Assembly: GCA_016281925.1 (NCBI GenBank)
Contig: JAEEJP010000113.1
Span: 1-32,175, forward strand
DNA length: 32,175 bases
Reading direction: 5' to 3'
Source: Methanomassiliicoccaceae archaeon
Lineage (GTDB): Archaea; Thermoplasmatota; Thermoplasmata; Methanomassiliicoccales; Methanomethylophilaceae
Each line of letters starts with the position of its first letter. Position 1 is the stretch's first letter. The notes beneath the pieces are model-generated. The model was not told the origin of the DNA. It ran no database searches and was given only the letters and a program-made list of their open reading frames with translations. Shown piece after piece: positions 4,697-25,246 of this stretch. The position numbers and the translations under genes were made by a program.

Positions 4697-5626
4697 TCAG
4701 TTGACGTAATCCAGCCAGCACTCGTACTCGGGGACTTTGCCGGTGGCGATGTCGTGGAATCTGGCGTGGATCTTCTGGGAGACCTCGCCGATCTTCCCGG
4801 TCCCGATGGGCCTTCCGTCGATGCAGGTGACCGGCGCGATCTCGGCCGCGGTCCCAGTCATCCAGACCTCATCGGAAGAGATGAGATCGAACCTGGAGAT
4901 CTGGGTCTCGAGCACGTCGTACCCCATCTCCCTTGCGATCTTGATGACGGAATCCCTGGTTATCCCTTCGAGGATGGATTCGGCGGACTGGGGAGTGAGA
5001 ATCTTCCCGTGGCGGTACATGAAGATGTTCTCCCCGGTGCATTCCGCGACGTGGCCGACGGAGTTGAGCATGACGGCCTCGTTGGCTCCGTGGGAGATCG
5101 CCTCCCTCTTGGCGAGGGTTGAGGTCACATATGCCCCGTTGACCTTGGCTCCGGCGGGTCCGCAAAGGTTGTCGGGCCTCTGCCAGGAGGAAGTTATGAG
5201 CTTCGCTCCCGCGTCGGCGTCCTTTCCGAGGTAATTGCCCATGTGGACGCAGGTGATGGCGAAGGAAACGGGAACCTTGACGGGGTTCAGCCCGGTCTCC
5301 TCTCCGCTGAGGAAAACGCAGGGCTTGATGTAGTCGACAGCCGTCCCGTTGGCTCTGACGGCATCCTTGATGGCCTCGCAGATGACCTTCTCGCCGTATT
5401 CCTTGCCTCCGAACTCGAGCTTGAAGCCCATCATCTTGCACCCGTCGACCAGCCTCCTGACATGGTCCTTGAGCCTGAACACGGCGGGCCCCTTGGGAGT
5501 CTGATAGACTCTGATGCCTTCGAAGACGCCGGTGCCGTAATTGAGGGCGTGCGCAAGGACATGGACCTTGGCGTCCGCCCAGTCGACGAGCTTTCCGTTG
5601 AGCCAAATCTTCTCTGTCTTATCCAT
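4697..5626 (-). CDS. ilvE: Branched-chain amino acid aminotransferase
   Basis: The product is a 309-residue fold-type IV PLP enzyme that interconverts branched-chain 2-oxo acids with valine, leucine and isoleucine. Family hallmarks are KIWLNGKLVDWADAKVHVLAHALNYGTGVFEGIRVY near the N-terminus, AYVTSTLAKREA (carrying the PLP lysine region), NEAVMLNSVGHVAECTGENIF and EVWMTGTAAEIAPV. Length and motif order are normal. An AAGGTG Shine-Dalgarno lies just before the ATG at 5626, 20 bases after the ACT-domain gene, so the two form an operon. Confidence 0.96.
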   Translation of the reverse strand: MDKTEKIWLNGKLVDWADAKVHVLAHALNYGTGVFEGIRVYQTPKGPAVFRLKDHVRRLVDGCKMMGFKLEFGGKEYGEKVICEAIKDAVRANGTAVDYIKPCVFLSGEETGLNPVKVPVSFAITCVHMGNYLGKDADAGAKLITSSWQRPDNLCGPAGAKVNGAYVTSTLAKREAISHGANEAVMLNSVGHVAECTGENIFMYRHGKILTPQSAESILEGITRDSVIKIAREMGYDVLETQISRFDLISSDEVWMTGTAAEIAPVTCIDGRPIGTGKIGEVSQKIHARFHDIATGKVPEYECWLDYVN

Positions 5627-5645
5627 TGATCCACCTTATTGGAGC

Positions 5646-6008
5646 TTAAAGTGCATTCAGTGCCTTGACGTATCTCTCGGGCTTGCTGCGCTCGATGAGC
5701 TCTTCCACCTGATCGGATCCGCCGACGACGCCGACGTTCCCGCTGGAAGTGGAGAGCAGCGCGTAAGCCGACTGCCCGGACTCCGGGACCAGCTCGGTCT
5801 CGTACACGTCCTGAAGCTTCTGGAGCCTGCCTATCGCTGTTTCGGCGACCGCCCTGTCGATGACGGACAGGACTATGCGGGATTTCCCGGGGCGCTCGCA
5901 CTTGCCGACGACGATCGTCTCGACGTTGATTTTGTTGCGGGTGAATTCCCCCATGACCCTCTGCATGACTCCGAACTCGTTCTTGACGATCAGCGAGATG
6001 ACATACAC
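5646..6008 (-). CDS. ilvN: Acetolactate synthase small-subunit-like ACT-domain protein
   Basis: The product is an ACT-domain regulatory protein, probably the valine-sensing small subunit of acetolactate synthase. It reads YVISLIVKNEFGVMQRVMGEF, then INVETIVVGKCE and a second part ending in QVEELIERSKPERYVKALNAL. At 120 residues it is shorter than bacterial IlvN/IlvH (about 160), with a reduced C-terminal domain. The ORF track starts at ATG 6041, but a TATA box sits at 6046-6055, so that ATG would lie upstream of the transcript. The in-frame GTG at 6008 has GAAGGTG five bases before it and starts exactly at the first ACT strand, so it is preferred. The catalytic subunit is not in the window. 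ilvE follows. Confidence 0.82.
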   Translation of the reverse strand: MYVISLIVKNEFGVMQRVMGEFTRNKINVETIVVGKCERPGKSRIVLSVIDRAVAETAIGRLQKLQDVYETELVPESGQSAYALLSTSSGNVGVVGGSDQVEELIERSKPERYVKALNAL

Positions 6009-6045
6009 GGCTGCACCTTCGTTGCCGTGTAACCTATGCACGGAT

Positions 6046-6055
6046 ACTTATAAGT
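6046..6055 (-). promoter_or_regulatory. TATA-box promoter of ilvN-ilvE
   Basis: The ten-base palindrome ACTTATAAGT predicts initiation near 6025 on the minus strand, between the ATG at 6041 and the GTG at 6008. It decides the choice of the GTG start. Confidence 0.6.
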
Positions 6056-6078
6056 TAAGAGAAAGAGGAAAAACCGGG

Positions 6079-7116
6079 TCATCCGGCGTCTTTCAGTATG
6101 AATTCGACCGCATCGGAGAAAGAGACGCCGTTCCCGACCCTGAAAGTCCTGCACCCGAGGCGGCGGCCGAATTCCATGTCCGCATCCGAATCCCCCACCA
6201 TATACGACCTGAGGGGGTTCACAGAATGCTTCCTTATGGCATCCAGCCCCATCCCTATGCGCGGCTTGCGGCATCCGCACTTCTCGTCCGGCCTGTGCGG
6301 GCAGAAGAATATGCCGTCGATGCGGCCCCCGCCGGCCTCGACTGTGCGCCGCAGCTTGGCATGGATCGCGTCCAGCTCCTCCATCCCGAAGTATCCGCGG
6401 CCCAGGCCGGACTGGTTCGTTATCAGGATCACCTTGAAACCGGCGGCGCTGAGCCTTGCGATGCCTTCCGGCACGTCGCCGTACGGAACGAAAAGATCCG
6501 GATCGCTGCAGTACGGAACATTCGGGGCCAGGGTGTCGTCCCTGTCCACGAAGACCGCTCGACTGCCGAACAGCTCCCGCTCCACGATGCCGCACACTAT
6601 GTGCGACGCGCAGAGGTACCCCTCCTGGATGCGGGGGGTCTCTTTGGACGGGATTATGACCGGGACGTCGGCGATATCCCTGAGCTTCCCGCAGTCCCCG
6701 GTGAACGAGATCACCTTGGCTCCGCGGGCGTGCGCCTCCTCGGCCGCCAGAATGACGTTCTCGGAGTTGCCCGAAGTGGAATAGCAGACGGCGACGTCTC
6801 CCGCGCGGCACATGGCCTCGATCTGCCTTTTGAAAACGATGGAGAACGAGTAGTCGTTCCCGATGGCCGTCACCGGGACGATGTTGGAAAGAGCGATCCC
6901 CGGAAGCGCCGGGCGCTCCATGAGGTATCTTCCGGAGAACTCCGCCGCTATATGCGCGGCATCGGCTGAGGAGCCTCCGTTGCCCATGAAATAGGCATGC
7001 CCGCCGTTTCTGAAGGCCTCGGCCAACACATCCGCCGCAGCGCGAATCTGGGCGGGATTTATGCGGGATATTACGCTGGAACTGGTCGCAAGCTGCTCAG
7101 ATATGGGATCACTCAT
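6079..7116 (-). CDS. gmhA-gmhB: Fused sedoheptulose-7-phosphate isomerase / heptose bisphosphate phosphatase (GmhA-GmhB)
   Basis: This 345-residue protein joins two steps of ADP/GDP-heptose synthesis. Residues 1 to about 182 are a SIS-domain GmhA: MGNGGSSADAAHIAAEFSGR, PVTAIGNDYSFSIVFKRQIE, STSGNSENVI and PSKETPRIQE all match the isomerase. Residues about 185-345 are a HAD phosphatase of the GmhB type: FVDRDDTL (nucleophile D191, acid/base D193), LITNQSGLGRGYF, the zinc loop C272-P-H with C280-G-C282, and GDSDADMEFGRRLG. The substrate would be D-glycero-D-manno-heptose 1,7-bisphosphate. The ATG at 7116 overlaps the hddA stop by eight bases, and the first 30 residues of the track ORF are spurious. 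In most organisms these are separate proteins. Confidence 0.9.
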   Translation of the reverse strand: MSDPISEQLATSSSVISRINPAQIRAAADVLAEAFRNGGHAYFMGNGGSSADAAHIAAEFSGRYLMERPALPGIALSNIVPVTAIGNDYSFSIVFKRQIEAMCRAGDVAVCYSTSGNSENVILAAEEAHARGAKVISFTGDCGKLRDIADVPVIIPSKETPRIQEGYLCASHIVCGIVERELFGSRAVFVDRDDTLAPNVPYCSDPDLFVPYGDVPEGIARLSAAGFKVILITNQSGLGRGYFGMEELDAIHAKLRRTVEAGGGRIDGIFFCPHRPDEKCGCRKPRIGMGLDAIRKHSVNPLRSYMVGDSDADMEFGRRLGCRTFRVGNGVSFSDAVEFILKDAG

Positions 7117-8349: not shown

Positions 8350-8790
8350 ATGCGCGTTGATCTTCTGTGCAGCTGGGGCGGCCATCTGCAGGAGATGATG
8401 GAGCTCAGAGGCGCATGGGAAGCCTACGACTGCAGGTTCGTGACATACGAAAGCGTGCGCGCGGACGGCTTGGAAGAGCCCAAAATTCTTCTGGTGCCCC
8501 CATGGAAGAGCAGGATTCGCTTCCTCATCTCCCTGGCCAAAGCGCTCCCGAAAGTGCTCTTCGACAGGCCTGACGTTCTGATCAGCACCGGGATGGGGCA
8601 CGCGGACATATTCATGTTCCCGCTCTGCAGATTCCTGGGCGCGTATACGATCTACATAGAATCCGGGGCGAACATCACAGAGATATCGGGGTCGGCCGCC
8701 TTCATCCGCCGCTTCTGCGACCGCTTCATCGTTAGATGGGAAAGCCTGGCGGACCAGATAGGCGCGGAATACCACGGGGGGATCTTCTGA
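8350..8790 (+). CDS. Alg14-like glycosyltransferase subunit (membrane-anchoring half)
   Basis: The product is a 146-residue Alg14/PssD-like protein, the acceptor-side half of a split GT28-type enzyme. In eukaryotes Alg14 recruits Alg13 to add the second GlcNAc to dolichol-PP-GlcNAc; in bacteria PssD/PssE-type pairs add sugars to polyprenyl-PP glycans. Diagnostic features are the N-terminal loop CSWGGHLQEMMEL (usual form S-x-GGH), PDVLISTGMGHADIFMFPLCR and TIYIESGANITEISG. The start is supported by a TATA box 25 nt upstream. The Alg13-like gene follows directly, so together they would form one enzyme. Confidence 0.85.
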   Translation: MRVDLLCSWGGHLQEMMELRGAWEAYDCRFVTYESVRADGLEEPKILLVPPWKSRIRFLISLAKALPKVLFDRPDVLISTGMGHADIFMFPLCRFLGAYTIYIESGANITEISGSAAFIRRFCDRFIVRWESLADQIGAEYHGGIF

Positions 8791-9320
8791 TACTGGTAAC
8801 CATAGGTATGAACGACTATCCTTTCGGCCCGCTTTTCGAGAGGATGGACGGGTATGCCGGACGCAGCGGGAAAGAAGTGGTCCAGCAGGTGGCCGGAACC
8901 GGGTTCAGGGGGACCCACAGCAGATGCTTCGATTTCCTCCCGGACGGCGGCATGTCGGAACTATATGATGAAGCGGATCTGGTGGTCTGCCACGCCGGGA
9001 TCGGAACCATCCTCAACTGCCTCGAAAGGAGGATCCCGATGGTCCTAGTCCCCCGCACGGTCGTATGCCGGAACGCCGACGGGACCCCGGACGGGCAGGA
9101 AGAAGTCGCGGCGAAAGTCGAAGCCATGGGAAGGGCGGTCGCCCTCAGAGACCTGGACGGACTGGAGCCGGCCATCGAAGCGGCGGAGAAGCTGAACATC
9201 CCGCCGTACCGGCGCAACCGCGACCTCGAACTGTTCCTGTCCGCCCTTCTGGAGGAATTGTCCGCGAAAAAGAAGCCGGAAAACAAAAGAAAGAGCCGTA
9301 ACCGGCGGGCCGAGGCATGA
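8736..9320 (+). CDS. Alg13-like glycosyltransferase subunit (nucleotide-sugar-binding half)
   Basis: This is the donor-binding half that pairs with the preceding Alg14-like protein. The recognisable protein begins ILVTIGMNDYPFGPLFERMD, the first strand and Gly loop of GT28 C-domains, and continues FLPDGGMSELYDEADLVVCHAGIGTILNCLERRIPMVLVPR, the family's donor site with its conserved Cys-His-Ala-Gly. The C-terminus is a Lys/Arg-rich tail. The start is uncertain: ATG 8736 overlaps Alg14 by 55 bases, ATG 8808 would delete the first beta strand, and a CTG near 8787 or 8793 is also possible. The true N-terminus probably lies near 8787. Confidence 0.82.
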   Translation: MGKPGGPDRRGIPRGDLLILVTIGMNDYPFGPLFERMDGYAGRSGKEVVQQVAGTGFRGTHSRCFDFLPDGGMSELYDEADLVVCHAGIGTILNCLERRIPMVLVPRTVVCRNADGTPDGQEEVAAKVEAMGRAVALRDLDGLEPAIEAAEKLNIPPYRRNRDLELFLSALLEELSAKKKPENKRKSRNRRAEA

Positions 9321-9378: not shown

Positions 9379-10563
9379 ATGCTTCCAGACATCACCATAG
9401 GGATATGCGCGTACAACGAAGCGCAGAACATAGCGCGCTGCGTAAGCTCGATATATTCACAGAAGACGCCGGGATTCCGGGTCAAAGAAGTCATCATAGT
9501 GTCCAGCGGAAGCACGGACGGCACCGACGACATAGTACGCGAGCTCCAGAAAGAGCACGGAGACATCAGTCTGATCGTCCAGAAGAAAAGAGAGGGGAAA
9601 AACTCGGCCATAAACGCATATCTGGACGCTAAGACGTGCGGGCTGGTCGTCATGCTGAACGCGGACAACATTTTCGGCACCGAAGAGTCCCTCCTGCGCC
9701 TCATAGAGCCGTTCGAGGACGAGAAGATGGGGATGGTCGGCGGCCACCCGGTGCCCACCAACAGCAAGGACGACAGGATCGGGTTCGCCGTCCATATGCT
9801 GTGGAGCATGCACCACAACCTCGCCATGATCTACCCCAAAATAGGGGAATTGGTGGCGTTCCGCGACATAGGCACGCGCCTGGCCCTGGACCAGCAGTCC
9901 GACGAGGACCTCATCAGGATGAACCTCGAGAAGGCGGGCTACAGATGCGCCTACGCCCCGGACGCGATAGTCTACAACAGAGGGCCTGAGACCGAGGAGG
10001 ATTTCCTCAAGCAGAGGACCCGCGTGAACATCGGCGAGTGCAACATGAAGAAGAAGTACGATTACGACATCCCTTCATGGAACAGGAAATACGTTCTCAA
10101 AGCCCTGTTCGGAACGGTCCGCGACCTGGGATTCCATCCCCTTAAGATGCTTTATGTCGGCCGCCTGGAGATGAAAGCCCGCTCGGACGCCAAAAAATAC
10201 ATCGAAAACGGGAACTGCGACATGAACATCTGGGACCCGGTCGGCACGACGAAAAAGCTCCGATCGGACTTTCCTGCCGTCATCCCTTGTCTCGCCCGGG
10301 CCCACCGCGTCCCCGTCGGCGAGCACCGAATTCCTGACGGACGCGCCGGCGCATACCCTGCATCCCCTGCCGATTATGCTGTCTTCTATGGACGCGCCTT
10401 CTATCCTGCTTCCGCCGAGGACCACAACGCGCCTGAGACGGGACCCTATGACTTCGGATCCGCCCATTATCACGGCCGAATCGATGTGGGAATCCCTTGC
10501 AAAAGAGCCTTCCCCCACGAACACCGGGCCCGACGCGGATCCGCCCGATATGCGCGACAGTGA
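9379..10563 (+). CDS. GT2-family glycosyltransferase (real coding part ends near 10262)
   Basis: The product is an inverting GT-A glycosyltransferase. It opens MLPDITIGICAYNEAQNIARCV and has VSSGSTDGTDDIV, KREGKNSAINAYLD and the metal-binding region VVMLNADNIFG. A later acceptor-side block runs EEDFLKQRTRVNIGEC. About 294 residues, to DPVGTTKKL, look like genuine protein. The last 100 residues, roughly 10263-10563, are antisense to the nucleotidyltransferase gene and read as low-complexity Arg/Pro/His, so the natural stop appears to be missing. It follows the Alg13-like gene by 58 bases, which include TTTTATGATA and GAATATAGG, so it may have its own promoter. Sugar and acceptor are unknown. 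Confidence 0.8.
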   Translation: MLPDITIGICAYNEAQNIARCVSSIYSQKTPGFRVKEVIIVSSGSTDGTDDIVRELQKEHGDISLIVQKKREGKNSAINAYLDAKTCGLVVMLNADNIFGTEESLLRLIEPFEDEKMGMVGGHPVPTNSKDDRIGFAVHMLWSMHHNLAMIYPKIGELVAFRDIGTRLALDQQSDEDLIRMNLEKAGYRCAYAPDAIVYNRGPETEEDFLKQRTRVNIGECNMKKKYDYDIPSWNRKYVLKALFGTVRDLGFHPLKMLYVGRLEMKARSDAKKYIENGNCDMNIWDPVGTTKKLRSDFPAVIPCLARAHRVPVGEHRIPDGRAGAYPASPADYAVFYGRAFYPASAEDHNAPETGPYDFGSAHYHGRIDVGIPCKRAFPHEHRARRGSARYARQ

Positions 10564-11286
10564 ATCCCCGGGCTCCCTGGACGCCATGCACAGATTGGCC
10601 CTGACATAATCCGACGGCCGGCCGACGTCCATCCAGACGCCTTCCAGAGGGTATCCCATGAGCTTCCCGCCGGAGGCTATGATCTCAGGGAAGATCTCCT
10701 TGGAGAAATCGCAGAATCTTCCCGCCGGGATCCTTGCGAGGGCATCCCTGCTGACCACGTAGACGCCGGCGTTTATCAGGTCGGAGAACGTCTCCCCTTC
10801 CTTCATGCCCTCCCTGAACTCCAGTATCGAGCCGTCATCCGCGGTGCGGGCAACCCCGAACTCCCAGGGATTCGGCACCGGGACGAGGGCGACGGTCACC
10901 TCCGCTCCGGATCCGAAATGGCGGTTGACCTCCCCTTTGAGGTCTATGTCCGCGAAAACATCCCCGTTGGAGGCCAGGAAAACCGGATCCAGCCTGTTTT
11001 CCGCGAGTTTCAGCGCGCCCCCGGTTCCCATGGGTTCGCTTTCGTAGGAATACGATATCTTTATCCCCAGATCGGAGCCGTCGCCGAGCGCCTCCTCCAT
11101 CATCTCCGAGCGGTAGCCGCATGCCAGGATTATCTCCTCGATGCCGGCCCTGGCCATGGATCTCATGAGATACCATATGCAGGGCCTCCCGGCCACCGGA
11201 AGTATGGGTTTGGGGCAGCTCTCGGTGAGGGGGCGGAGCCTCGTGCCCTGGCCCCCCACCATTATGACGGCCTGCCGGACCCTCAT
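10075..11286 (-). CDS. Sugar-phosphate nucleotidyltransferase with left-handed beta-helix tail (candidate HddC)
   Basis: The protein activates a sugar 1-phosphate with an NTP. The catalytic domain begins RQAVIMVGGQGTRLRPLTESCPKPILPVAGRP, with the G-x-G-T-R-L loop and the Pro-Lys pair, followed by FLASNGDVFADID and GYPLEGVWMDVGRPSDYVRA. After about residue 235 come hexapeptide-like repeats (GPVFVGEGSFARDSHIDSAV, IEDSIIGRGCRVCAGASVRN). Bacterial HddC is shorter, about 230 residues, without this tail, so a GDP-mannose pyrophosphorylase-like role is also possible. It starts at 11286, overlapping the DUF89 stop (ATGA). The last 65-70 residues of the ORF, below about 10283, are antisense to the GT2 gene and are probably not native. 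Confidence 0.82.
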   Translation of the reverse strand: MRVRQAVIMVGGQGTRLRPLTESCPKPILPVAGRPCIWYLMRSMARAGIEEIILACGYRSEMMEEALGDGSDLGIKISYSYESEPMGTGGALKLAENRLDPVFLASNGDVFADIDLKGEVNRHFGSGAEVTVALVPVPNPWEFGVARTADDGSILEFREGMKEGETFSDLINAGVYVVSRDALARIPAGRFCDFSKEIFPEIIASGGKLMGYPLEGVWMDVGRPSDYVRANLCMASREPGDSLSRISGGSASGPVFVGEGSFARDSHIDSAVIMGGSEVIGSRLRRVVVLGGSRIEGASIEDSIIGRGCRVCAGASVRNSVLADGDAVGPGETRDDGRKVRSELFRRADRVPDVHVAVPVFDVFFGVRAGFHLQAADIKHLKGMESQVADRSEQGFENVFPVP

Positions 11287-12176
11287 CTGTCCATTCTCCT
11301 CCCGTTGAGGACGGCGAACACCGCGTTGGTCCCCTGGGGGACGCCCACGGATCTGGCGACCGGGACGCATTTGGCGCGGAGGATATGGATCACGGGCACC
11401 GGTATTGTCAGGTCGGAAACGCTCTCGTAGTTGGCCATGCCCTTCATTATTATCAGATCGGCGCTGGCCACGGCGTTCTTGGTTTCTTCCGGCGCGTTCT
11501 CCCAGTCGATTCCGACGTAGAATTTGCCGGTGTCATATATCTCGTCCAGATCCATGGCCAAGCCGGACCTCTCGACATCATCTTTGGTGACGTCGTTCAG
11601 GATGGGCTTCCCGCGGACCACTCCGATCACGTATTTCCCGTTCTTGCGGAGCTCCCTGATGAGGATCCTGTCGAGCTGGGACTCCCCGCAGTTGTCGAAC
11701 ACGTACACGACCCTTCTGGCTCCCAGAAGCAGCGAATTGATGAGCTCCTGGTCGTAAAGGCCGAGGCCTTCCGCCATGAACGCGTCGAACTTCTCGCCGA
11801 AATCCTCGGGGCTGTCCACAGTCTTGGCGTCGATCCCGAAATCCATAACGTTCCCGACCGCGGCGATGAGGATGGCGGTACCCAACCTGTTCTCGGAAGC
11901 GTCCACAAGGCCCTGCGCGCGCATTGCGAGGCCGTCGGCGATGTTGTCGGCGCTGACCTTTATCTTCTTGTAAGGGTCCTCCACCAGCATCTTGGAATAG
12001 GAGGCCTCGTGGACGGCCGTCCCTACTTCGGAGGTGGTCTTGTCCGGTCCCGTCGCCTTGGCCAGAGCTTTGACGCAGGCATCCATCGAAGCGTATTCGT
12101 CTATGCGGCTGTCCAGCCTGCACTGGAACAGCGCGCGTTTCATGAGGCAAGGTATGCAATCCGCCTGTATCTTCAT
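11283..12176 (-). CDS. DUF89/ARMT1-like damage-control phosphatase family protein
   Basis: This 297-residue protein belongs to the COG1578 (DUF89) family of metal-dependent phosphatases. Characterised relatives hydrolyse sugar phosphates or phosphopantetheine-type damage products. Diagnostic features are the N-terminal ADCIPCLMKRAL with paired cysteines, the metal-binding core VVYVFDNCGESQLDRILIRELRK around residues 155-178, VRGKPILNDVTKDD, and LIIMKGMANYESVSD near residue 250. Its stop overlaps the nucleotidyltransferase start by four bases, suggesting that it edits or supplies a sugar phosphate for that enzyme, which is an inference. AGGTG lies eight bases before the ATG, and GTTTGATAAG at 12210-12219 may be its TATA box. 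Confidence 0.88.
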   Translation of the reverse strand: MKIQADCIPCLMKRALFQCRLDSRIDEYASMDACVKALAKATGPDKTTSEVGTAVHEASYSKMLVEDPYKKIKVSADNIADGLAMRAQGLVDASENRLGTAILIAAVGNVMDFGIDAKTVDSPEDFGEKFDAFMAEGLGLYDQELINSLLLGARRVVYVFDNCGESQLDRILIRELRKNGKYVIGVVRGKPILNDVTKDDVERSGLAMDLDEIYDTGKFYVGIDWENAPEETKNAVASADLIIMKGMANYESVSDLTIPVPVIHILRAKCVPVARSVGVPQGTNAVFAVLNGRRMDR

Positions 12177-12299
12177 TTATGGCACCTGCGGCGTAATAGG
12201 CGTGGACCCTTATCAAACAATGCCGAGCGCGGCCCTGCCGGAGAAGATCTGCGGGCCGGGGATCCGGTATCCCTCCGCCTCGCGGGCGGAAAGGCCTCT

Positions 12300-12314
12300 C
12301 TTTAATTATTAAAG
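12300..12314. promoter_or_regulatory. Perfect 15-base palindrome, possible operator
   Basis: CTTTAATTATTAAAG has seven-base arms around a central T. It lies 20 bases before the TATA box of the zinc-ribbon/aEF1B operon, in the 188-base gap between that operon and the divergent DUF89 gene. Position and symmetry fit a dimeric regulator site, but AT-rich palindromes can also arise by chance. I see nothing else coding in the gap. Confidence 0.35.
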
Positions 12315-12333
12315 ATTAAAGACGGGCTATTCT

Positions 12334-12342
12334 CTTAAATAG
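12334..12342 (+). promoter_or_regulatory. TATA-box promoter of the zinc-ribbon/aEF1B operon
   Basis: CTTAAATAG is centred about 27 nt before the ATG at 12365, fitting a leaderless or nearly leaderless transcript. Confidence 0.6.
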
Positions 12343-12364
12343 GTGTAGCCATATCGGACGCACT

Positions 12365-12532
12365 ATGGCAGCCGACAAAATATGCTCTTCATGCGGTAAG
12401 AGGCTCATCGGCCACGGCAATACCTTCTTCAAATGCCCCAAGTGCGGGGAGTATGAGATCGGAAGGTGCGACCAGTGCCGCGACCAGGGCGTCCCCTACG
12501 AATGCAAGAAATGCGGATTCATTGGACCGTGA
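12365..12532 (+). CDS. Small two-zinc-ribbon protein (HVO_2753-like)
   Basis: This 55-residue protein is too short for the ORF track. It carries four CxxC pairs (CSSC, CPKC, CDQC, CKKC), enough for two zinc ribbons, and ends KKCGFIGP. Archaeal micro-proteins of this type are commonly encoded directly upstream of aEF1B, and the haloarchaeal member HVO_2753 is known to bind zinc. The gene is followed after nine bases by the aEF1B ATG. That conserved pairing suggests a translation-linked role, but the function is unproven. Confidence 0.9.
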   Translation: MAADKICSSCGKRLIGHGNTFFKCPKCGEYEIGRCDQCRDQGVPYECKKCGFIGP

Positions 12533-12541
12533 GGTGCTCAT

Positions 12542-12811
12542 ATGGGAGAGTTATTCGCCAAATACGAAATAATGCCCGAGAACCCCGACGTCGATATGAA
12601 GAAGGTTCTCGAGAAGCTCCCCTCAGTGCTTCCCGCCGGAGTCAAACTCCAGAAAACCGGTCTCGAAGAGGCTTTCTTCGGTATGATGAAGCTCACCGCC
12701 GAATTCATCATCGACGATTCCGACGAAGGCGTCGGAGGAAAGCTCGAAGAGGCCATCGGCGCTCTGGAAGGCGTCGGAGAGATCTCCTGCGTCGATTCCA
12801 CGGTGCTCTGA
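12542..12811 (+). CDS. ef1b: Translation elongation factor aEF1B (EF-1 beta)
   Basis: This is an 89-residue guanine-nucleotide exchange factor for aEF1A. It matches the archaeal EF-1 beta domain over its whole length: VLEKLPSVLPAGVKLQKTG, EEAFFGMMKLTAEFIIDD, GGKLEEAIGALEGVGEISCVDSTVL. GAGGTG lies just upstream of the ATG at the end of the zinc-ribbon gene, so internal genes of the operon use a Shine-Dalgarno even though the operon start is leaderless. Confidence 0.96.
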   Translation: MGELFAKYEIMPENPDVDMKKVLEKLPSVLPAGVKLQKTGLEEAFFGMMKLTAEFIIDDSDEGVGGKLEEAIGALEGVGEISCVDSTVL

Positions 12812-12818
12812 AACTCGG

Positions 12819-12855
12819 AGGGGGAAATCCCCCCGTTATTTTCATTCTGATTTTC
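12819..12855 (+). terminator. Transcription terminator after aEF1B
   Basis: A GGGGG-AAAT-CCCCC hairpin is followed by the T-rich GTTATTTTCATTCTGATTTTC, starting eight bases after the aEF1B stop. The stem plus T-runs is a good terminator, and the next gene has its own TATA box. Confidence 0.65.
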
Positions 12856-12937
12856 ATGCGCTCCGATGCCGGGGACAGCGCCTTTCTGAATTCTTTCGAA
12901 TCAGGTTTTATAGGACCATACGGATGGGAAACGGAAC

Positions 12938-13960
12938 ATGAAGGCCGGCACCGACCATTATGCCGCTTTGGCGATAGCCCTCGCCGCATTGATATTGATT
13001 GGGGGGTATCTCACGTACAGCCCGGGCATATATCGCGGCGCATCGGCGGAATGGTCGGACGGACACGTCGATTTCTCCGTGGAATGCAGCGGATCGGACG
13101 TGTATTCGGCGGTTCTCATCAGCGGCGAAAAACGCCTGGACCGCCTGTATATCTACGTCGACGAGAAGGCAGACGGCCTTTACGGAGAAGCCTGCGCCAT
13201 GGCCTCCGATGGCATGGCTCCCCTGGCGTTCGACAGGGGATATGCCGCGGAGCAGATAGCCCAGATGCTCCGCTTCAGAGGCTTCGGCCAGACCGAGACT
13301 GTGGATCGCGCCGGCCTGGAGGAGATAATAGCGAATACAGCCGGAGATCCGGAAGGGACCGGGATAATGTCGGTATCCTTCGCGCTTCCGTCATCTGTTT
13401 ACGCGGGAAATGACGGCGACCCCCTTCTGAGATGGATCCGCGGCGGGGGCAGCCTGTTCTGGCTGGGCTCCGAAGCCGGGAAATTCCACTCGGACGGGGA
13501 AGGGCTCCGCATGGTCCGGAACAGCGGGGAGCTCCTGTTCGGAAGCGCGGACGCGATCGACTCGTCCAGCAAAGACATCGCATCGTACATAACCGGGGAG
13601 ACCATAGACAACGGATTCCTGGATGCGCTTTCCCTCAAAGGCAGCACGACATTGTTCGGCCTCAGAGGGGGCCTCCAGCTCGGATTCGTCCGCGAAGGGC
13701 ATTCTTCCGTCGCCGTGGCGCCTTTCGGAAGCGGCAGCATAACGGTCTTCGCTGGAGGCCCGGACCTGGAGCAGTTCGACGACATCGGGCAGACGATAGC
13801 GTCTGGGATAGGGCCTGACAGCTCTGTCCTGGACTGGGAGGAGGGGAAAGTCTCCAGAGGGACGGCCAGAGGTTCGATGGATTCCGCCGGGCCCTGCCAT
13901 CTTTACGTATACATGGGCGGGACGTACACCGATTGGGGGAGAACGCTTTATGCGCCTTGA
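12938..13960 (+). CDS. Membrane-anchored extracytoplasmic protein of unknown function
   Basis: This 340-residue protein has one N-terminal membrane helix (about residues 8-30, YAALAIALAALILIGGYLTY) and a soluble remainder that is presumably outside the cell. The soluble part includes FDRGYAAEQIAQMLRFRGFG and LLRWIRGGGSLFWLGSEAGK, a layout reminiscent of DUF4350/ThuA-like flavodoxin-type folds found next to membrane glycosyltransferases. I cannot name the family. TTTTATAG at 12906-12913 is at the leaderless distance from the ATG. The stop overlaps the next gene by 11 bases, so it is the first gene of a surface-glycan operon. Confidence 0.75.
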   Translation: MKAGTDHYAALAIALAALILIGGYLTYSPGIYRGASAEWSDGHVDFSVECSGSDVYSAVLISGEKRLDRLYIYVDEKADGLYGEACAMASDGMAPLAFDRGYAAEQIAQMLRFRGFGQTETVDRAGLEEIIANTAGDPEGTGIMSVSFALPSSVYAGNDGDPLLRWIRGGGSLFWLGSEAGKFHSDGEGLRMVRNSGELLFGSADAIDSSSKDIASYITGETIDNGFLDALSLKGSTTLFGLRGGLQLGFVREGHSSVAVAPFGSGSITVFAGGPDLEQFDDIGQTIASGIGPDSSVLDWEEGKVSRGTARGSMDSAGPCHLYVYMGGTYTDWGRTLYAP

Positions 13961-15323
13961 GAAGACCGCGGGACGCTTCCGCCGCTGGGCGGAGAATGCC
14001 GGGCACCCGCTCCTGACGGTTTTCATGATCGGCCTGGCCGCGCGCCTGCTTATGATGGCGCTGGCGCTGGTCTTCGATTCGAACTATTGGGCGGTCGTGG
14101 TCCGCAACATCAACGCCGGAGGAGGCCTCTATGACATCGAGGGCTACTTCTACACCCCGGTCTGGGGCTACGTCCTCGGCCTTATGAACTCGTTCTCCAA
14201 CGCTTTCCTTGAGATAGGGGAGATGGGGGTCAAGGTGCCGGAGATAGCGTTCTTCGAGCAGAGCCCCAACCATACCATTTCGATCGTGACGTCTCTCGCG
14301 TTCGATTACTGCTCGAAAGCCCCTCTGATCCTGTTCGACCTCGTAGCCGCGCTTGCCGCCGGGAAACTGGCTGCGGAGCTTTCCGGGGACCGCATCCGCT
14401 CCGTGGCCGCATTCTCTCTGGTATGGCTCAGCCTGACCGTCATGGGTTCCTCCGGGATCATAGGGATGCCGGATTCCATCGGCGCCGCCTTCATGATGCT
14501 GTCGCTGCTTTTCCTCATCGGCAACAGATATTTCCTGATGGGGATGTGCTTCGCGCTGGCGGTGGCGACGAAATTCTTCCCCGTATTCCTGTTCATGCCT
14601 ATGGCCGCCTATTTCTTCGCTTCGGAAAAGGGATCCGGGAAAGCGGGCCTCCGTTTCCTTATGGCGGCGGCCGGAGGATTCGGCATCTTGGCGCTGATAT
14701 TCCTGCCGCAGCTCATGACCGGGGACATAACGGAATGCTTCAGATTCATAACGGACCGCACGGGATTCTCGTACGGCTCCGAAGGGGCGCCCCAGATCGA
14801 AGGGTTCACCCGGGTGGCCTGCTATGCCGCCATCTCGGCCGCCACAGTCTTCGCCGGCATATGGGTCGGCAAAGGCGGAAAGGAAGGGCTCAGGAAGAGG
14901 ATGTTCACGGGCGCTTTCATCTGCATGACGCTATGCATGCTGTATCCCCCGGCGCCGCAGTACCTGGTCGCCCTCATCCCCCTTCTGGCAATCCAGATTT
15001 CTACGGAAGACCGCAGGTTCATCGTGCCGTGGATCATAATCTGGATCAGCTCCGCCATAGTGTTCGCATCCACGGCGCCCACGAATCTCCTGCCGCTTTC
15101 CTTGGGGACAGGATGGCCGTCCCTGGATTCGATAATCGGCATGTTCGTCTTCCTGGACAGCAGCGGAGGCCTTTTCGACCACCTGAATCTGGTCTACGTG
15201 CTGGGATTCGCCGTGCAGTACGTAGGCATCGCGTCCATCGCCGCGATATATCTCCGCGGCAGGTCCGGAAACGGGGAGAAGACCTTTCCGGAAAACAGCG
15301 GGGACGAGGATACCGTTATATAA
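13950..15323 (+). CDS. GT-C fold membrane glycosyltransferase (GT87/PIG-M-like)
   Basis: This is a 457-residue polytopic protein with about ten or more membrane segments. It has the general layout of polyprenyl-phosphate-sugar-dependent GT-C enzymes: an early acidic loop after the first helix (FDSNYWAVVVRNINAGGGLYDI), then TPVWGYVLG, a long middle with AFALAVATKFFPVFLFMP-like helices (KFFPVFLF is typical of GT87/PIG-M proteins), and YPPAPQYLVALIPL. It would add a sugar on the outer face of the membrane. It overlaps the anchored protein upstream and is followed after 35 bases by the CDP-alcohol transferase. Donor and acceptor are unknown. Confidence 0.78.
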   Translation: MRLEKTAGRFRRWAENAGHPLLTVFMIGLAARLLMMALALVFDSNYWAVVVRNINAGGGLYDIEGYFYTPVWGYVLGLMNSFSNAFLEIGEMGVKVPEIAFFEQSPNHTISIVTSLAFDYCSKAPLILFDLVAALAAGKLAAELSGDRIRSVAAFSLVWLSLTVMGSSGIIGMPDSIGAAFMMLSLLFLIGNRYFLMGMCFALAVATKFFPVFLFMPMAAYFFASEKGSGKAGLRFLMAAAGGFGILALIFLPQLMTGDITECFRFITDRTGFSYGSEGAPQIEGFTRVACYAAISAATVFAGIWVGKGGKEGLRKRMFTGAFICMTLCMLYPPAPQYLVALIPLLAIQISTEDRRFIVPWIIIWISSAIVFASTAPTNLLPLSLGTGWPSLDSIIGMFVFLDSSGGLFDHLNLVYVLGFAVQYVGIASIAAIYLRGRSGNGEKTFPENSGDEDTVI

Positions 15324-15358: not shown

Positions 15359-16105
15359 ATGAGCATCGACTGGCGCCGTTATATCGAATGCCTGGACCAT
15401 TCGAACCTCAACGCTTCCGAGAGGTACGTTTACAACCCCCTGGCCGTCCCTCTCGGAGGGCTGTGCCTCAAAATCGGCGCCACACCCAACGCCATAACCG
15501 CTTTCTGGGGCCTGCTGATGTTCCTCGCCTCCGTAGGATTCTACTTCGGGGATTACGTCCTCAGCATACTGTGCGGGATCGCATGGGTCATCGCCTACGC
15601 CCTCGACTGCACCGACGGGCCCGTAGCCAGGTACACCGGTCTGAAATCCCCCCGCGGAGACTATCTCGACGGGGTGAACCATCGCGTGACGTATCCGATG
15701 CTGATGTTTTTCATCGGATATTCCGTGTTCGCATCCGGAGGAAGGCCTATATTCGGCTATGAATTCGATCCCATAGCATATCTTATCCTGGGAACCGCGG
15801 CTGGGATCGCCATGGTTCTGATAATAGATCTGACCAACATCTACAACCGCCTGATGCCGGACGCGGCCATAGACGGGAACGACGGCTCCCTCGGAGTGGA
15901 AGGGAAAAGATTCGCCGGCAGGAAAGGCATCGCGGCCCTTTTCATGCTGAACCCAGCGGCGTTCACGAACATGATCGTTCTGATCCCCATCTTCGCCGCG
16001 CTGGACCGCCTGGACCTCTTCATAATCTTCTACGGCATCGTGTATCCCGCCGGCGCCCTGTCCAGATACGTGATGTACCTCAAGAAGCTGCCCAAACCGA
16101 TGTGA
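15359..16105 (+). CDS. CDP-alcohol phosphatidyltransferase-family protein with altered active site
   Basis: This is a 248-residue membrane protein of the CDP-OH-P-transferase family. The signature D-x2-DG-x2-AR-x8-G-x3-D-x3-D is nearly complete: D83, D86-G87, A90-R91, G100 and D104. The final Asp, thought to be the catalytic base, is His108 (GDYLDGVNHR). The track ORF begins at 14423, but its first 312 residues are antisense or out of frame to the GT-C gene. The real start is the ATG at 15359. The neighbours are a GT-C enzyme, a flippase and LicD, so it may move a phospho-alcohol onto a glycan rather than make bulk phospholipid. Either a different chemistry or a subfamily variant could explain the His. 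Confidence 0.85.
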   Translation: MSIDWRRYIECLDHSNLNASERYVYNPLAVPLGGLCLKIGATPNAITAFWGLLMFLASVGFYFGDYVLSILCGIAWVIAYALDCTDGPVARYTGLKSPRGDYLDGVNHRVTYPMLMFFIGYSVFASGGRPIFGYEFDPIAYLILGTAAGIAMVLIIDLTNIYNRLMPDAAIDGNDGSLGVEGKRFAGRKGIAALFMLNPAAFTNMIVLIPIFAALDRLDLFIIFYGIVYPAGALSRYVMYLKKLPKPM

Positions 16106-16118
16106 ACCTGGTGCGAAG

Positions 16119-17663
16119 ATGGCTTTCAGCGGATTCTCACTGGAAAAGACCCCTCTGAACATGGTCACGAACACGGTCCGCACCGCGGTCATGGCCCTGG
16201 TCGGGATCTGGCTCATACCGTTCTACATAGATTCGCTGGGCACTGTCGCGTACGGGATAATCCCCGTGGCCACCACCATAACCTCGTACGTTATGATCCT
16301 GGCGGATTCTCTGGGCACGGCCAACTCCCGCTACATAACCCTGGCCATAAGAGAGACGGATGACGCCTCGCAATCGATATCCACCGCTCTGTTCGGGATC
16401 CTGAGGATATGCCTGGCACTGCTGCCGGCGGTGATTCTGATATCCATCGCGGCGCCGCATGCCATCGACATAAGCGGCAACGCCGCCGGCGACGTCCAGG
16501 CCCTGTTCCTGATGGTGCTGGGCGCGTCGGTGATCTCTGCGGTCCCGTCCGTGTTCTTCGGAGTGTATTCCGCGTTCAACACCCTGTATGTCTGGTATGC
16601 CGCCAGACTGATCTACACGCTCTCGCAGGTCGCCCTGATCCTGGTCATGTTCGAGTTCTTCGAGCCGTCACTGGCCCATGTCGGAGCCTCTTACCTGGCA
16701 TCGTCCGTCATACTCCTCGTCCTGGTTCTGATAACGGCCAAGCGCCAATATCCCAGGATGAGGCTTTCGCCGAAGCTCTACGACAGGAAGCTCTTCCGGG
16801 CCATGGGCAACCTCGGCGCGTGGGCCATAATAAACCGCGTCGGCAACCTGCTTTACATAGAGGCGTCCCTGATCCTGACCAACCTCTACCTGGGATCCGA
16901 AGCCGACGCGGGAGTGGCGATTATAGCGTCGCTGGTATCGATGATCCACACCGCCTGCTACTCGATCACGGCTTCCCTCGGGCCTCTGGTGTATGCGTGC
17001 TACTCAGACGGGGACATAGACGGGCTGAAGAGGCTGACCTCCGTCTCGATGAAATTCGTCTCGCTGATGATGGCCATGCCGCTGGCGCTGATCATCGTGT
17101 TCGCCCCGCAGGTGCTTCACGCCTGGGTGGGGGACGAATTCGGATATCTTTCGGCCGCAGTGGCCATCGCGCTGGCCGGGGACATAGCCGTGTGCGCCTA
17201 CACCGTGCTCCAGGACATACCCGTGATATATCTGAGGGTCAAGGAGCTGTCTCTGCCCACGTTCGCGTTCGGGATCCTTAACATAGCAGCCACAGCGGCC
17301 CTCCTGAGCTTCACGGACATGGGCGTCGACGGGGTCATCGCGGTATGGTTCGTCTGCACCATGGGATTCACCTTCTGGGCGATACCTCTGGCGGCGAAAA
17401 TGGTGGGGGCCCCCGTCATGCTCTATCTGAAGCCGATAGCCGGGGGATACTGCGCCATGGCGCTCTGCATAGGAGGCCTGTGGGCACTTTCCCAAGCGAT
17501 CTGGATACCCGGGACGTGGGCGGCGATAATCCCGCTCTTCGCAATTCTGTCCCTGGTTTACGCGTTCGCCGTGCTGCGCTCGTCCGGAAAGGGTGACAAA
17601 GAAGTCCTCCTTTCGATAATGCCCGAGGGGCTCAGAAGGATCGCCTCGAAGATCATGGGATGA
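16119..17663 (+). CDS. Wzx/MATE-like polysaccharide flippase
   Basis: This is a 514-residue protein with about 12-14 membrane segments, consistent with MOP-superfamily flippases that turn lipid-linked oligosaccharides to the outside. The N-terminus has TPLNMVTNTVRTAVMALVGIWLIPFYIDSLGTVAYGI, the usual first helices with a conserved Gly-x-x-Ala/Tyr-Gly turn. Later parts are typical of Wzx-like transporters (LGASVISAVPSVFFGVYSAFNTL, MGNLGAWAIINRVGNLLYIEASLIL). It begins 13 bases after the CDP-alcohol transferase, within the same operon. The substrate is probably the glycan made by the neighbouring glycosyltransferases. Confidence 0.87.
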   Translation: MAFSGFSLEKTPLNMVTNTVRTAVMALVGIWLIPFYIDSLGTVAYGIIPVATTITSYVMILADSLGTANSRYITLAIRETDDASQSISTALFGILRICLALLPAVILISIAAPHAIDISGNAAGDVQALFLMVLGASVISAVPSVFFGVYSAFNTLYVWYAARLIYTLSQVALILVMFEFFEPSLAHVGASYLASSVILLVLVLITAKRQYPRMRLSPKLYDRKLFRAMGNLGAWAIINRVGNLLYIEASLILTNLYLGSEADAGVAIIASLVSMIHTACYSITASLGPLVYACYSDGDIDGLKRLTSVSMKFVSLMMAMPLALIIVFAPQVLHAWVGDEFGYLSAAVAIALAGDIAVCAYTVLQDIPVIYLRVKELSLPTFAFGILNIAATAALLSFTDMGVDGVIAVWFVCTMGFTFWAIPLAAKMVGAPVMLYLKPIAGGYCAMALCIGGLWALSQAIWIPGTWAAIIPLFAILSLVYAFAVLRSSGKGDKEVLLSIMPEGLRRIASKIMG

Positions 17664-17732: not shown

Positions 17733-18500
17733 ATGAACGAGACCCAGACCGCTCTCCTTTCGATGTACAAGGACATTAAAGAGGTCCTGGAGCGGAACGG
17801 GATAGAATTCTACTGCCATTTCGGTACCGCGCTGGGGGCGGTCAGGCACGGCGGGTTCATCCCTTGGGACGACGACGTGGATTTGGCCGTATGGGAAAGG
17901 GATCTTCCTGATGTGAACAGAGCTCTGGCCGGGGAGCTGGACCCCTCGGAATACTATTACCACATCCCCTCGGCGGACAACCACCCGCACGTCATCTCCC
18001 TGGCGAAGGGGAAGGAAGGCCTGAGGAACAGGGATGCGCCGTTCATAGACATCTTCCCGATATCGGATTATCCCTCGGGGAGGATCAGGCAGACGATCGC
18101 AGACGCCATGATCTGGGGGGACAACATTTCCATTTACGCGCTGGACCGCATCAGAAGCCCGGCCATACACAGGCGCCTGAAATGGACGCATGAAGCGTTC
18201 TACAGGCTGGCCCACATGGCGGCCGGCGGAAAATGCGGCCTGACCACGGTGTATTCCACCGAATTCAAAGGCTACATCTTCAGGAAAGAGGATTACGGCA
18301 GGCCTGTGATGCATGCGTTCGAAGACACCGAGATCCCCCTGCCGCAGGGATGGGACCGCATGCTGGAACATATGTTCGGGGATTATATGACCCCGCCGCC
18401 GGAGGGCCAGCGGAAAGGCGCGGGCGGATTCCCCTGCGGCGCCTGGATCGATTTCGAGGCCGGCTCCGGGAAGAAGCGATTTTCCGCATCGAGACTATAG
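17733..18500 (+). CDS. LicD-family phosphotransferase
   Basis: This is a 255-residue LicD-type enzyme of the nucleotidyltransferase fold, which in characterised cases transfers phosphocholine or another phospho-alcohol from a CDP-alcohol to a surface glycan. The core FYCHFGTALGAVRHGGFIPWDDDVDLAV holds the family's Gly and Asp-triad metal ligands, followed by APFIDIFPIS. The C-terminal region GGFPCGAWIDFEAG is less conserved. It ends in TAG, which matters if the host decodes TAG as pyrrolysine; read-through would add only a short non-conserved tail before TAA. It follows the flippase by 69 bases and completes the surface-glycan block. Confidence 0.88.
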   Translation: MNETQTALLSMYKDIKEVLERNGIEFYCHFGTALGAVRHGGFIPWDDDVDLAVWERDLPDVNRALAGELDPSEYYYHIPSADNHPHVISLAKGKEGLRNRDAPFIDIFPISDYPSGRIRQTIADAMIWGDNISIYALDRIRSPAIHRRLKWTHEAFYRLAHMAAGGKCGLTTVYSTEFKGYIFRKEDYGRPVMHAFEDTEIPLPQGWDRMLEHMFGDYMTPPPEGQRKGAGGFPCGAWIDFEAGSGKKRFSASRL

Positions 18501-18502
18501 TC

Positions 18503-19564
18503 TTATCTGCCCAGAACTTCCCCCAGAGCATCGAGCAGGGCGTCGTAATCCTCTTCCGAGAGGTTTCCGATGTGCCCCACGCGCAGGACCCTGCCGCGGA
18601 GATCCCCGCCGCTGGGCGTGACCGTGATGCCGTAGCTGTCCCTCAGCTTCAGGAACACGTCATACGCGTTGCCGCCGAACAGTATGGGGGTGACTGCGTT
18701 GGACAGGGGATAATCCGGCATGGGGATCCCCATCTCTGCGGCGCCCTTCCTGAAATATGCCGCAAGATGCGCCGTGCGCCCGATCCAGGTTTCCAGCCCT
18801 TCCTCGGAGATCTTCCTGAGCATGGCGTTCAGATCCAGCAGAATCCCCACGGCAGGGGTGAAAGGCGTCTGGCCCCTCTCCTGATCCAGGAGATGGTGCT
18901 TGAGATCCAGATAATAGAGGCCGGAATCCCTTCTGAGAAGCCTGTCCTTGTATATCCCGCGCCTCATCACCACCGCGGAGATCCCCGGGGCCAAGGAAAG
19001 CGCTTTCTGAGAGCTGATAATGACTGCATCGATCCCGTCCTTCTCCATGTCCAGCGGATCGGCCAGGAAAGAACTTATCGCGTCGACGATCAGATACATC
19101 CCTTTGCGCCTGCAGAACGCCGACAGCATCCCGATGTCATACAGCTGGCCTGTCGAGGTCTCGTCCATGTTCACCAGCATCCCCGAGTATTCCTTGCCGG
19201 AGAACGGCTCCAGATCCTCTTCCGACAGGGCTTTGCCGAACGGCAGGACGACGTCGTCGTGGGGTATGCCGTGGACGCCGCAGATCTCGGCGAAGCGCTT
19301 TCCGAACCCGCCGCCGCATATTATCAGAAGGCGGTCCCCGCGCCCGAAGAATCCCGCGACGGCGGCCTCCATCGCGCCCGTCCCGGATGCGGTCAGGAAT
19401 GCCGCTTTGGATCCTTCTCCGGCTCCGAGAAGCCTTTTCAAGATCGCTTCTGATTCCAGCATGGTCTCCGAGAACTGGTTGGTCCTGAAGTAAGGCAGCT
19501 GCTTCCCCGATCCCTCCAGGATTTCGGGGTACATCATCACGGGCCCGACTGTGAAAAGCCTCAT
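18503..19564 (-). CDS. Class V aminotransferase (alanine-glyoxylate/serine-pyruvate/AEP type)
   Basis: This is a 353-residue PLP-dependent fold-type I enzyme of the class V group. Its N-terminus MRLFTVGPVMMYPEIL is typical, with TASGTGAMEAAVAGFF in the cofactor phosphate-binding region, D161 in LIVDAISSF and the Schiff-base lysine K187 in IISSQKALSLAPG. Members use serine, alanine, glyoxylate or 2-aminoethylphosphonate, and sequence alone does not decide. The gene is tail-to-tail with licD, with only two bases between the stops. A TATA box (TCATAAATACC, 19592-19602) precedes the ATG by about 33 nt. Confidence 0.88.
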   Translation of the reverse strand: MRLFTVGPVMMYPEILEGSGKQLPYFRTNQFSETMLESEAILKRLLGAGEGSKAAFLTASGTGAMEAAVAGFFGRGDRLLIICGGGFGKRFAEICGVHGIPHDDVVLPFGKALSEEDLEPFSGKEYSGMLVNMDETSTGQLYDIGMLSAFCRRKGMYLIVDAISSFLADPLDMEKDGIDAVIISSQKALSLAPGISAVVMRRGIYKDRLLRRDSGLYYLDLKHHLLDQERGQTPFTPAVGILLDLNAMLRKISEEGLETWIGRTAHLAAYFRKGAAEMGIPMPDYPLSNAVTPILFGGNAYDVFLKLRDSYGITVTPSGGDLRGRVLRVGHIGNLSEEDYDALLDALGEVLGR

Positions 19565-24592: not shown

Positions 24593-25246
24593 TCAGCTCT
24601 TCCTGTCCTCTCCGCAGAGGTTCCGCCATGTTATGATGGCCCTCTGGATGGCGGTGAGGTTCCCTACGACGGCGAACCAGAGCATCATTATCTCCAGCCA
24701 GTTCAGTTCGAACCCGGCTATCCCGAACGATCCGAGCCCGAACTGCATCATGACGAACTGTATGATCGGGAACAGCGTGGAAAGGACGACCCTGTCCGCG
24801 CGCCCCAGCAGCCCCGCATAAAGGCGCGGAGCCCCGATGGCCTGTGCCTGCGTCCCCATATACGAAGTCAGCAGGACGCCCACCAGAGCGGCCATCCCGA
24901 GATACGGGTCGCACCAGGCGCTCACCGCCACCCCGCCGATCATGAACACGTCCGCGTATCTGTCGAACACATGGTCCAGATAATCGCCTTTGCGGGAAGC
25001 TTTCCCGGCCAGTTTGGCCACTTTGCCGTCCAGCGCGTCGAAGTATCCCGACACGATCACTGATACGGCGCCCGCTATCAGCAGATATTCCTTCCCTTCG
25101 AACCCGCTGAAATAGAATATCACGCCGCACAGCAGCGCGATTATGAGCCCTATCCACGATATCAGATTCGGATTGACGTTTATCAGCCTCTTGGCCACCG
25201 GGGCCAAGGCGAAGTCTGCCCTCGCTCTCTGTCCGTCAAGAACCAT
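24593..25246 (-). CDS. Archaetidylinositol-phosphate synthase-like CDP-alcohol phosphatidyltransferase
   Basis: This 217-residue membrane enzyme probably condenses CDP-archaeol with L-myo-inositol 1-phosphate to make archaetidylinositol phosphate. The signature DALDGKVAKLAGKASRKGDYLDHVFD gives D70, D73-G74, A77, K78 (Lys in place of the usual Arg), G87, D91 and D95, so all the acidic residues are intact, unlike the homologue at 15359. The N-terminus MVLDGQRARADFALAPVAKRL is typical of the AIPS group, which confirms the ATG at 25246 even though it overlaps the AK6 gene by 64 bases. It is the last gene of a five-gene operon. Confidence 0.88.
   Translation of the reverse strand: MVLDGQRARADFALAPVAKRLINVNPNLISWIGLIIALLCGVIFYFSGFEGKEYLLIAGAVSVIVSGYFDALDGKVAKLAGKASRKGDYLDHVFDRYADVFMIGGVAVSAWCDPYLGMAALVGVLLTSYMGTQAQAIGAPRLYAGLLGRADRVVLSTLFPIIQFVMMQFGLGSFGIAGFELNWLEIMMLWFAVVGNLTAIQRAIITWRNLCGEDRKS

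Follow-up and report, generated by a model that had tools for sequence, protein, structure and literature searches.

The window, by which we mean the whole 32,175-nucleotide stretch of archaeal DNA analysed here, encodes a CDP-alcohol phosphotransferase-fold membrane protein in which the fourth aspartate of the family signature (D4) is replaced by a histidine, H108. The substitution is confirmed as real and, judging from alignments and trees, appears to mark a deep branch of the family that lacks D4, has mostly His in its place and extends over archaea and bacteria. Published accounts treat the fourth Asp as an absolutely conserved residue that serves as the catalytic base. We lean towards an active, Kennedy-type phosphotransferase that would move a phospho-head-group from a soluble CDP-head-group (CDP-X) onto a lipid or a lipid-linked glycan, and in which H108 would stand in for D4.

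A histidine at the fourth signature position

The two family members of the window, and the signature of the first, are as follows.

15359-16105, plus strand: CDP-alcohol phosphotransferase-fold membrane protein, His-type (H108), 248 aa; from PF01066, an AlphaFold2 model and 20 His homologues
15605-15682, plus strand: signature D83xxD86GxxAR-x8-GxxxD104xxxH108; from sequence and alignment
24593 to about 25249, minus strand: archaetidylinositol-phosphate-synthase-like enzyme with four Asp and GRADR in TM5; from NF040950 (138 bits) and sequence

The translation of the His-type gene contains DCTDGPVARYTGLKSPRGDYLDGVNHR, in which D1, D2, G, A, R, G and D3 of the canonical signature are all present and the D4 position is occupied by His, encoded by CAT at 15680-15682; the reading of H108 as the last signature Asp in the earlier note on this DNA thus holds. 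The protein scored 26.1 bits in a Pfam search with PF01066 (cut-off 22 bits) and 42.4 bits on NF040950, the archaetidylinositol phosphate synthase model, which is below the equivalog cut-off of 180. The minus-strand member retains DALDGKVAKLAGKASRKGDYLDHVFD with all four Asp, and its score on NF040950 is also below that cut-off. The archaetidylinositol phosphate synthases that it exemplifies share their Pfam family and first three Asp with the His-type protein, from which, however, D4 and the GRADR of TM5 are absent. The earlier note was right that the second member keeps all its Asp, but it did not state the strand; read on the plus strand, 24593-25246 contains no gene, the family member being encoded opposite. 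The genome to which the window belongs, assembled to about 1.96 Mb in 122 contigs, has one further all-Asp member.

The histidine is conserved

Of 102 genomes from the window's own archaeal family, 20 contain a clear homologue of the His-type gene. A separate scan of contigs yielded none with a single-sequence query but succeeded with an alignment-based one. The relatives that carry names are Methanomethylophilaceae or Thermoplasmata MAGs, many of animal-gut origin, which makes an archaeon of that family the most likely host; a gene of the His type (L054) is carried by the genome of Candidatus Methanomethylophilus sp. 1R26. In the larger alignment, each of the 20 rows from the family has His at the H108 position, as do the 18 sequences of alignment A1, and the signature residues D1, D2, G, A, G and D3 are invariant throughout. 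The gene of genome G068, 85% identical to that of the window, specifies the His by CAC and not CAT, and purifying selection on the His-type gene is shown by a dN/dS of about 0.13 between the two (NG86, 0.084/0.631).

Conservation of the His among homologues, which the earlier note had proposed to check by alignment, is therefore borne out; that note had also considered a His unique to one decaying gene, or a sequencing error in the CAT codon. With His in 20 sequences from independent genomes, two different codons for it and the low dN/dS, we see practically no chance that error or decay accounts for it, despite the single in-frame TAG that each of the L017 and L018 genes contains. These TAGs (both genes at 1501-2151 of their loci) include one at a position where relatives have Gln, and another in-frame TAG is present in a LicC-like gene of the window's own genome (L109; G000:C56:43510-44232). 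The host archaeal group decodes TAG as pyrrolysine, so that those of L017 and L018 are not clear signs of decay; for all three genes, pyrrolysine read-through and early decay are both possible.

A branch lacking the fourth aspartate

When D3 and D4 were masked, a tree of 65 sequences parted Asp-type from non-Asp-type enzymes with support of 98/85, the one exception being a Gly-type row on the Asp-type side. The unmasked tree held 47 non-Asp rows, 37 with His and 10 with other residues (Ile, Leu, Gly or Ala). On this tree the His state alone requires 4 changes (monophyly test), and our claim therefore covers the non-Asp branch and not one origin of His; the domain is short, with many long branches, and deep placement in the tree is uncertain.

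The His signature, expressed as a codon pattern, was searched for in 237 genomes of a DPANN phylum (Nanoarchaeota/Woesearchaeota) and in 82 from the phylum to which a KSB1 bacterium belongs. The pattern gave 12 matches in 11 of the former and was present in 6 of the latter, against zero matches of a reversed control pattern in the same searches; the Asp-ending version of the pattern occurred in 86 of the 237 DPANN genomes. The His-type branch reaches far beyond LicD-type glycan operons: DPANN archaea and bacteria belong to it, and LicD is missing from some of its loci. Several DPANN relatives within the non-Asp branch (L065-L071) have Glu at D3 and Ile or Leu at D4, and so depart from the signature further still. 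In L051, a tandem pair of His-type genes (4890-6605, plus strand) follows a small nucleotidyltransferase gene, on a contig without LicD. A tblastn search of plasmids returned four distant relatives only, none of them His-type, and we found no viral relatives of the His-type protein; in the literature, we found neither a described His-type subfamily nor an archaeal CDP-alcohol/LicD system.

The gene neighbourhood

The genes surrounding the His-type gene in the window are:

9379-10563, plus strand: GT2 glycosyltransferase of the same island; PF00535 1.8e-24; kept in 12 other loci; C-terminal extension of the ORF doubtful
12938-13960, plus strand: conserved protein, 340 aa, no Pfam family; upstream in the putative operon; kept in 11 other loci
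13950-15323, plus strand: GT-C-like multi-membrane-span glycosyltransferase, 457 aa; weak GT87/PIG-M/ALG3 matches
16119-17663, plus strand: polysaccharide flippase-like protein, 514 aa; no Pfam match of its own
17733-18500, plus strand: LicD-family phosphotransferase, 255 aa; PF04991 E = 5.6e-21
18503-19564, minus strand: class-V aminotransferase, PhnW-like (2-aminoethylphosphonate aminotransferase-related); TIGR03301 140 bits, below the cut-off of 361

The intergenic gaps between the GT-C-like, His-type, flippase-like and LicD genes are 35, 13 and 69 bases, which makes an operon likely. The setting among GT-C, flippase and LicD genes, proposed from the letters alone in the earlier note, stands: LicD is recognized directly by PF04991, and for the flippase and GT-C proteins, whose own scores lie under the Pfam cut-offs, homologues of the former (about 36% identity) exceed the PF01943 Polysacc_synt cut-off and a sister-genome orthologue of the latter exceeds that of GT87. 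Among the 20 loci, several of them on short contigs, 14 have flippase homologues and 13 LicD homologues. Two short ORFs upstream of the GT2 gene (8350-9320, plus strand) resemble, on reading by eye, the halves of an Alg14/Alg13-type glycosyltransferase.

Candidate cytidylyltransferases and the proposed donor

Candidate cytidylyltransferases beside His-type genes are of three unrelated kinds: TagD-like in L041 and L042, IspD/TarI-like in L035, L037, L038, L045 and L049, and LicC-like in L037 and L050. A LicC-like nucleotidyltransferase is fused to an iron alcohol dehydrogenase in L044 and, adjoining the His-type gene of L052 (6053-7867, plus strand), to a CobD/HisC-like aminotransferase, a fusion that perhaps makes a CDP-amino-alcohol. 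For a neighbour test, the profiles were rebuilt each time so as to leave out the locus under test, and general sugar nucleotidyltransferases, taken as those whose E to the LicC-like profile exceeded 1e-30, were not counted. A candidate lay within a radius of 5.5 kb at 10/19 family loci and 8/15 outside loci, as opposed to 0/20 Asp-type controls (archaetidylinositol-phosphate-synthase loci of related genomes; 2/20 if weak matches are counted). Fisher tests against the controls gave 1.5e-4 for family and 2.7e-4 for outside loci, the loci being related. Because of this relatedness, because the profiles were derived from His-type loci, and because Asp-type enzymes such as IPCT-DIPPS also accompany cytidylyltransferases, the enrichment backs a CDP-X donor and not a role for the His. 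A nucleotidyltransferase is still present (weak in L051) in the LicD-free loci L038, L050, L051 and L052, and the donor thus need not serve LicD alone.

We found no true cytidylyltransferase adjoining the His-type gene of the window; a LicC-like match at about 10.6-11.3 kb is mannose-1-phosphate guanylyltransferase-like and was excluded. The window's genome (G000), however, has two LicC-like copies in trans, on contigs C56 and C78, each adjoining an ATP-grasp enzyme. A LicC-like gene is present in 6/6 His-type genomes that have the class-V aminotransferase (G000, G061, G066, G067, G068 and G070) and in 6/96 other genomes (7e-7), the six being from one genus and not independent. In five genomes a LicC-like gene was found and a His-type gene was not detected, so that part of the product may serve LicD. 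In loci L111 and L112 (the C56 and C78 copies), L184, L185, L187 and L188, a LicC-like gene and its ATP-grasp ligase partner lie close to genes for large Sel1-repeat proteins; several of these loci hold further LicD genes, and together they make up a second surface-decoration island.

Aminotransferase and LicC-like genes adjoin in L037, L180, L181 and L182. PntC and LicC enzymes carry out nucleotidyl activation of phosphonates and phosphocholine (PMC6697681), and the gene pair of these related loci, with its LicD neighbours, resembles an unfused PntC. L044 and L045 also carry a phosphonopyruvate decarboxylase and a PEP mutase that has a fused cytidylyltransferase domain. In L044, genes for the nucleotidyltransferase-iron alcohol dehydrogenase (10715-12475), a phosphonopyruvate-decarboxylase-like protein (12472-13581) and the PEP mutase-cytidylyltransferase (13578-14888) lie on the minus strand, a predicted route to CMP-activated hydroxyethylphosphonate in a gut archaeon. 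PEP mutase scored above the curated cut-off in 15 of the 102 family genomes, which suggests that phosphonate synthesis is not rare in gut methanogens of the Methanomethylophilaceae-type family, and is absent from most His-type genomes. The window's genome, about 86% complete, had no TIGR02320 match and in this differs from a PntC-type system; we therefore dropped a phosphonate head group for the window organism, keeping it for L044 and L045, and the head group in the former is probably an amino-alcohol or similar.

Predicted structure and the acceptor site

An AlphaFold2 model of the His-type protein (pLDDT 87.5) has the CDP-AP membrane helix-bundle fold, and its best solved structure matches (Foldseek) are AF2299 and IPCT-DIPPS. 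AF2299 of Archaeoglobus fulgidus (PDB 4o6m, 4o6n, 4q7c) is both the top profile match to the protein (1.7e-16) and the top fold match to the model (TM 0.72, probability 1.0). The two have in common the D1-D2-G-AR-G-D3 site and TPNQIT at the start of TM1, but AF2299 has Asp at D4 and an RxDxR-type motif in TM5, where the His-type family has PxxFTNM. The A. fulgidus IPCT-DIPPS (PDB 4mnd), a CDP-inositol phosphotransferase, shares the fold and takes as donor a CDP-activated polar alcohol supplied by a cytidylyltransferase, much as proposed here; unlike the His-type protein, it is fused to the cytidylyltransferase, has four Asp and uses a polar inositol-phosphate acceptor.

In Asp-type relatives, the last Arg of the TM5 motif (RxDxR/GRADR) is the equivalent of R155 of M. 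tuberculosis PIP synthase (MtPIPS) when aligned through R. salmoninarum PIPS, and R155 binds inositol phosphate (PMC4634129). This Arg is replaced by M205 in the window's protein, and the acceptor is thus probably something other than an inositol phosphate.

Mechanism and alternatives

We infer the activity, the role of H108, the donor, head group and acceptor in the window organism, and the order of events as follows. A soluble CDP-X made by a cytidylyltransferase would be bound by D83, D86 and D104 with metal ions; a hydroxyl of the lipid or lipid-linked glycan, at the cytosolic face, would attack the beta-phosphate, so that phospho-X is transferred and CMP released. H108 would substitute for the fourth Asp as general base, second-metal ligand or both. 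The flippase and GT-C neighbours may then act on the product, flipping and extending it, and LicD would probably add a second decoration from a similar CDP-X. The earlier note had suggested a branch that decorates glycans with phospho-alcohols: a branch marked by His, with relatives beside cytidylyltransferases, is what we find, but the glycan as acceptor does not stand as the choice, a lipid being equally possible.

Two known systems favour this Kennedy-type reading. In human CEPT1, His155 or His197, and not D4, has been proposed as the base (PMC10156783), which makes a His base chemically reasonable in this fold. The proposed logic is also that of the eukaryotic choline/ethanolamine phosphotransferases CEPT1/CHPT1 (8gyw, 8ero), soluble CDP-X and a lipid alcohol, although these keep four Asp and their sequence similarity is weak (7e-4). 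According to a prediction that its authors did not confirm, an alternative Bacteroidetes cluster of NTP transferase, CDP-alcohol phosphatidyltransferase and HAD genes produces CDP-inositol, which is then joined to diacylglycerol in a Kennedy-type step (PMC9246714). The Bacteroides locus L075 has the gene order of this cluster and, like His-type genes, falls in the non-Asp branch and has a nucleotidyltransferase neighbour; it differs by Gly, not His, at D4 and by its inositol lipid.

The enzyme might instead be active with H108 in a structural or acceptor-contacting role and with a phosphate of the substrate, D104 or some conserved acid (E181, for example) as the base, which we regard as unlikely. 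The D4 site indeed varies in other members of the branch, where Ile, Leu, Gly and Ala are tolerated and where His may accordingly not be essential everywhere; E181 is Glu in 18 of the 20 family members, though unconserved outside the family; and the CEPT1 proposal likewise places the base away from D4. That His is nonetheless the commonest residue at D4 over very distant non-Asp lineages suggests a chemical role for it.

In M. tuberculosis PgsA1, D4 is a Mg-2 ligand and the presumed base (PMC6506517), and in MtPIPS the conservative D4N substitution nearly abolished activity with substrate binding retained (PMC4634129), so that an enzyme without D4 might be inactive. The His-type protein would then be a pseudoenzyme that binds CDP-X or lipid as an accessory subunit, and the LicD transferase of the same operon could do the chemistry. 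We consider this improbable, because the remaining residues of the catalytic signature are invariant over the deep branch and because His-type genes adjoin nucleotidyltransferases in the four LicD-free loci.

Equally improbable, in our view, is a CDP-archaeol-using (AIPS/PgsA-like) enzyme that has acquired a new polar acceptor and forms an unusual archaeal phospholipid, in place of one with a soluble CDP-head-group. The known lipid-forming members of the family in archaea use CDP-archaeol, and the donor-site residues are common to them and to the His-type protein; the cytidylyltransferase neighbours, however, indicate a soluble CDP-X, the AIPS equivalog score falls far short of its cut-off, and the inositol-phosphate-binding Arg of TM5 is absent.

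Implications

Beyond the Kennedy-type reading for the window's protein, we propose tentatively, as possible rather than probable, that this unnamed deep branch of Thermoplasmata, DPANN and several bacterial groups, with D4 changed mainly to His, is specialized in decorating lipid-linked surface glycans with polar head groups activated by CDP or CMP (glycerol, ribitol-like groups, amino-alcohols or phosphonates), as a second, membrane-embedded route parallel to LicD. With a natural branch that does without D4, it can be tested directly whether this residue serves in catalysis as base or as metal ligand, and annotation based on motifs may mislabel His-type genes as phospholipid synthases. For the organisms themselves, the finding points to phospho-decorated surface molecules in gut methanogens, phosphonate-bearing in some species.
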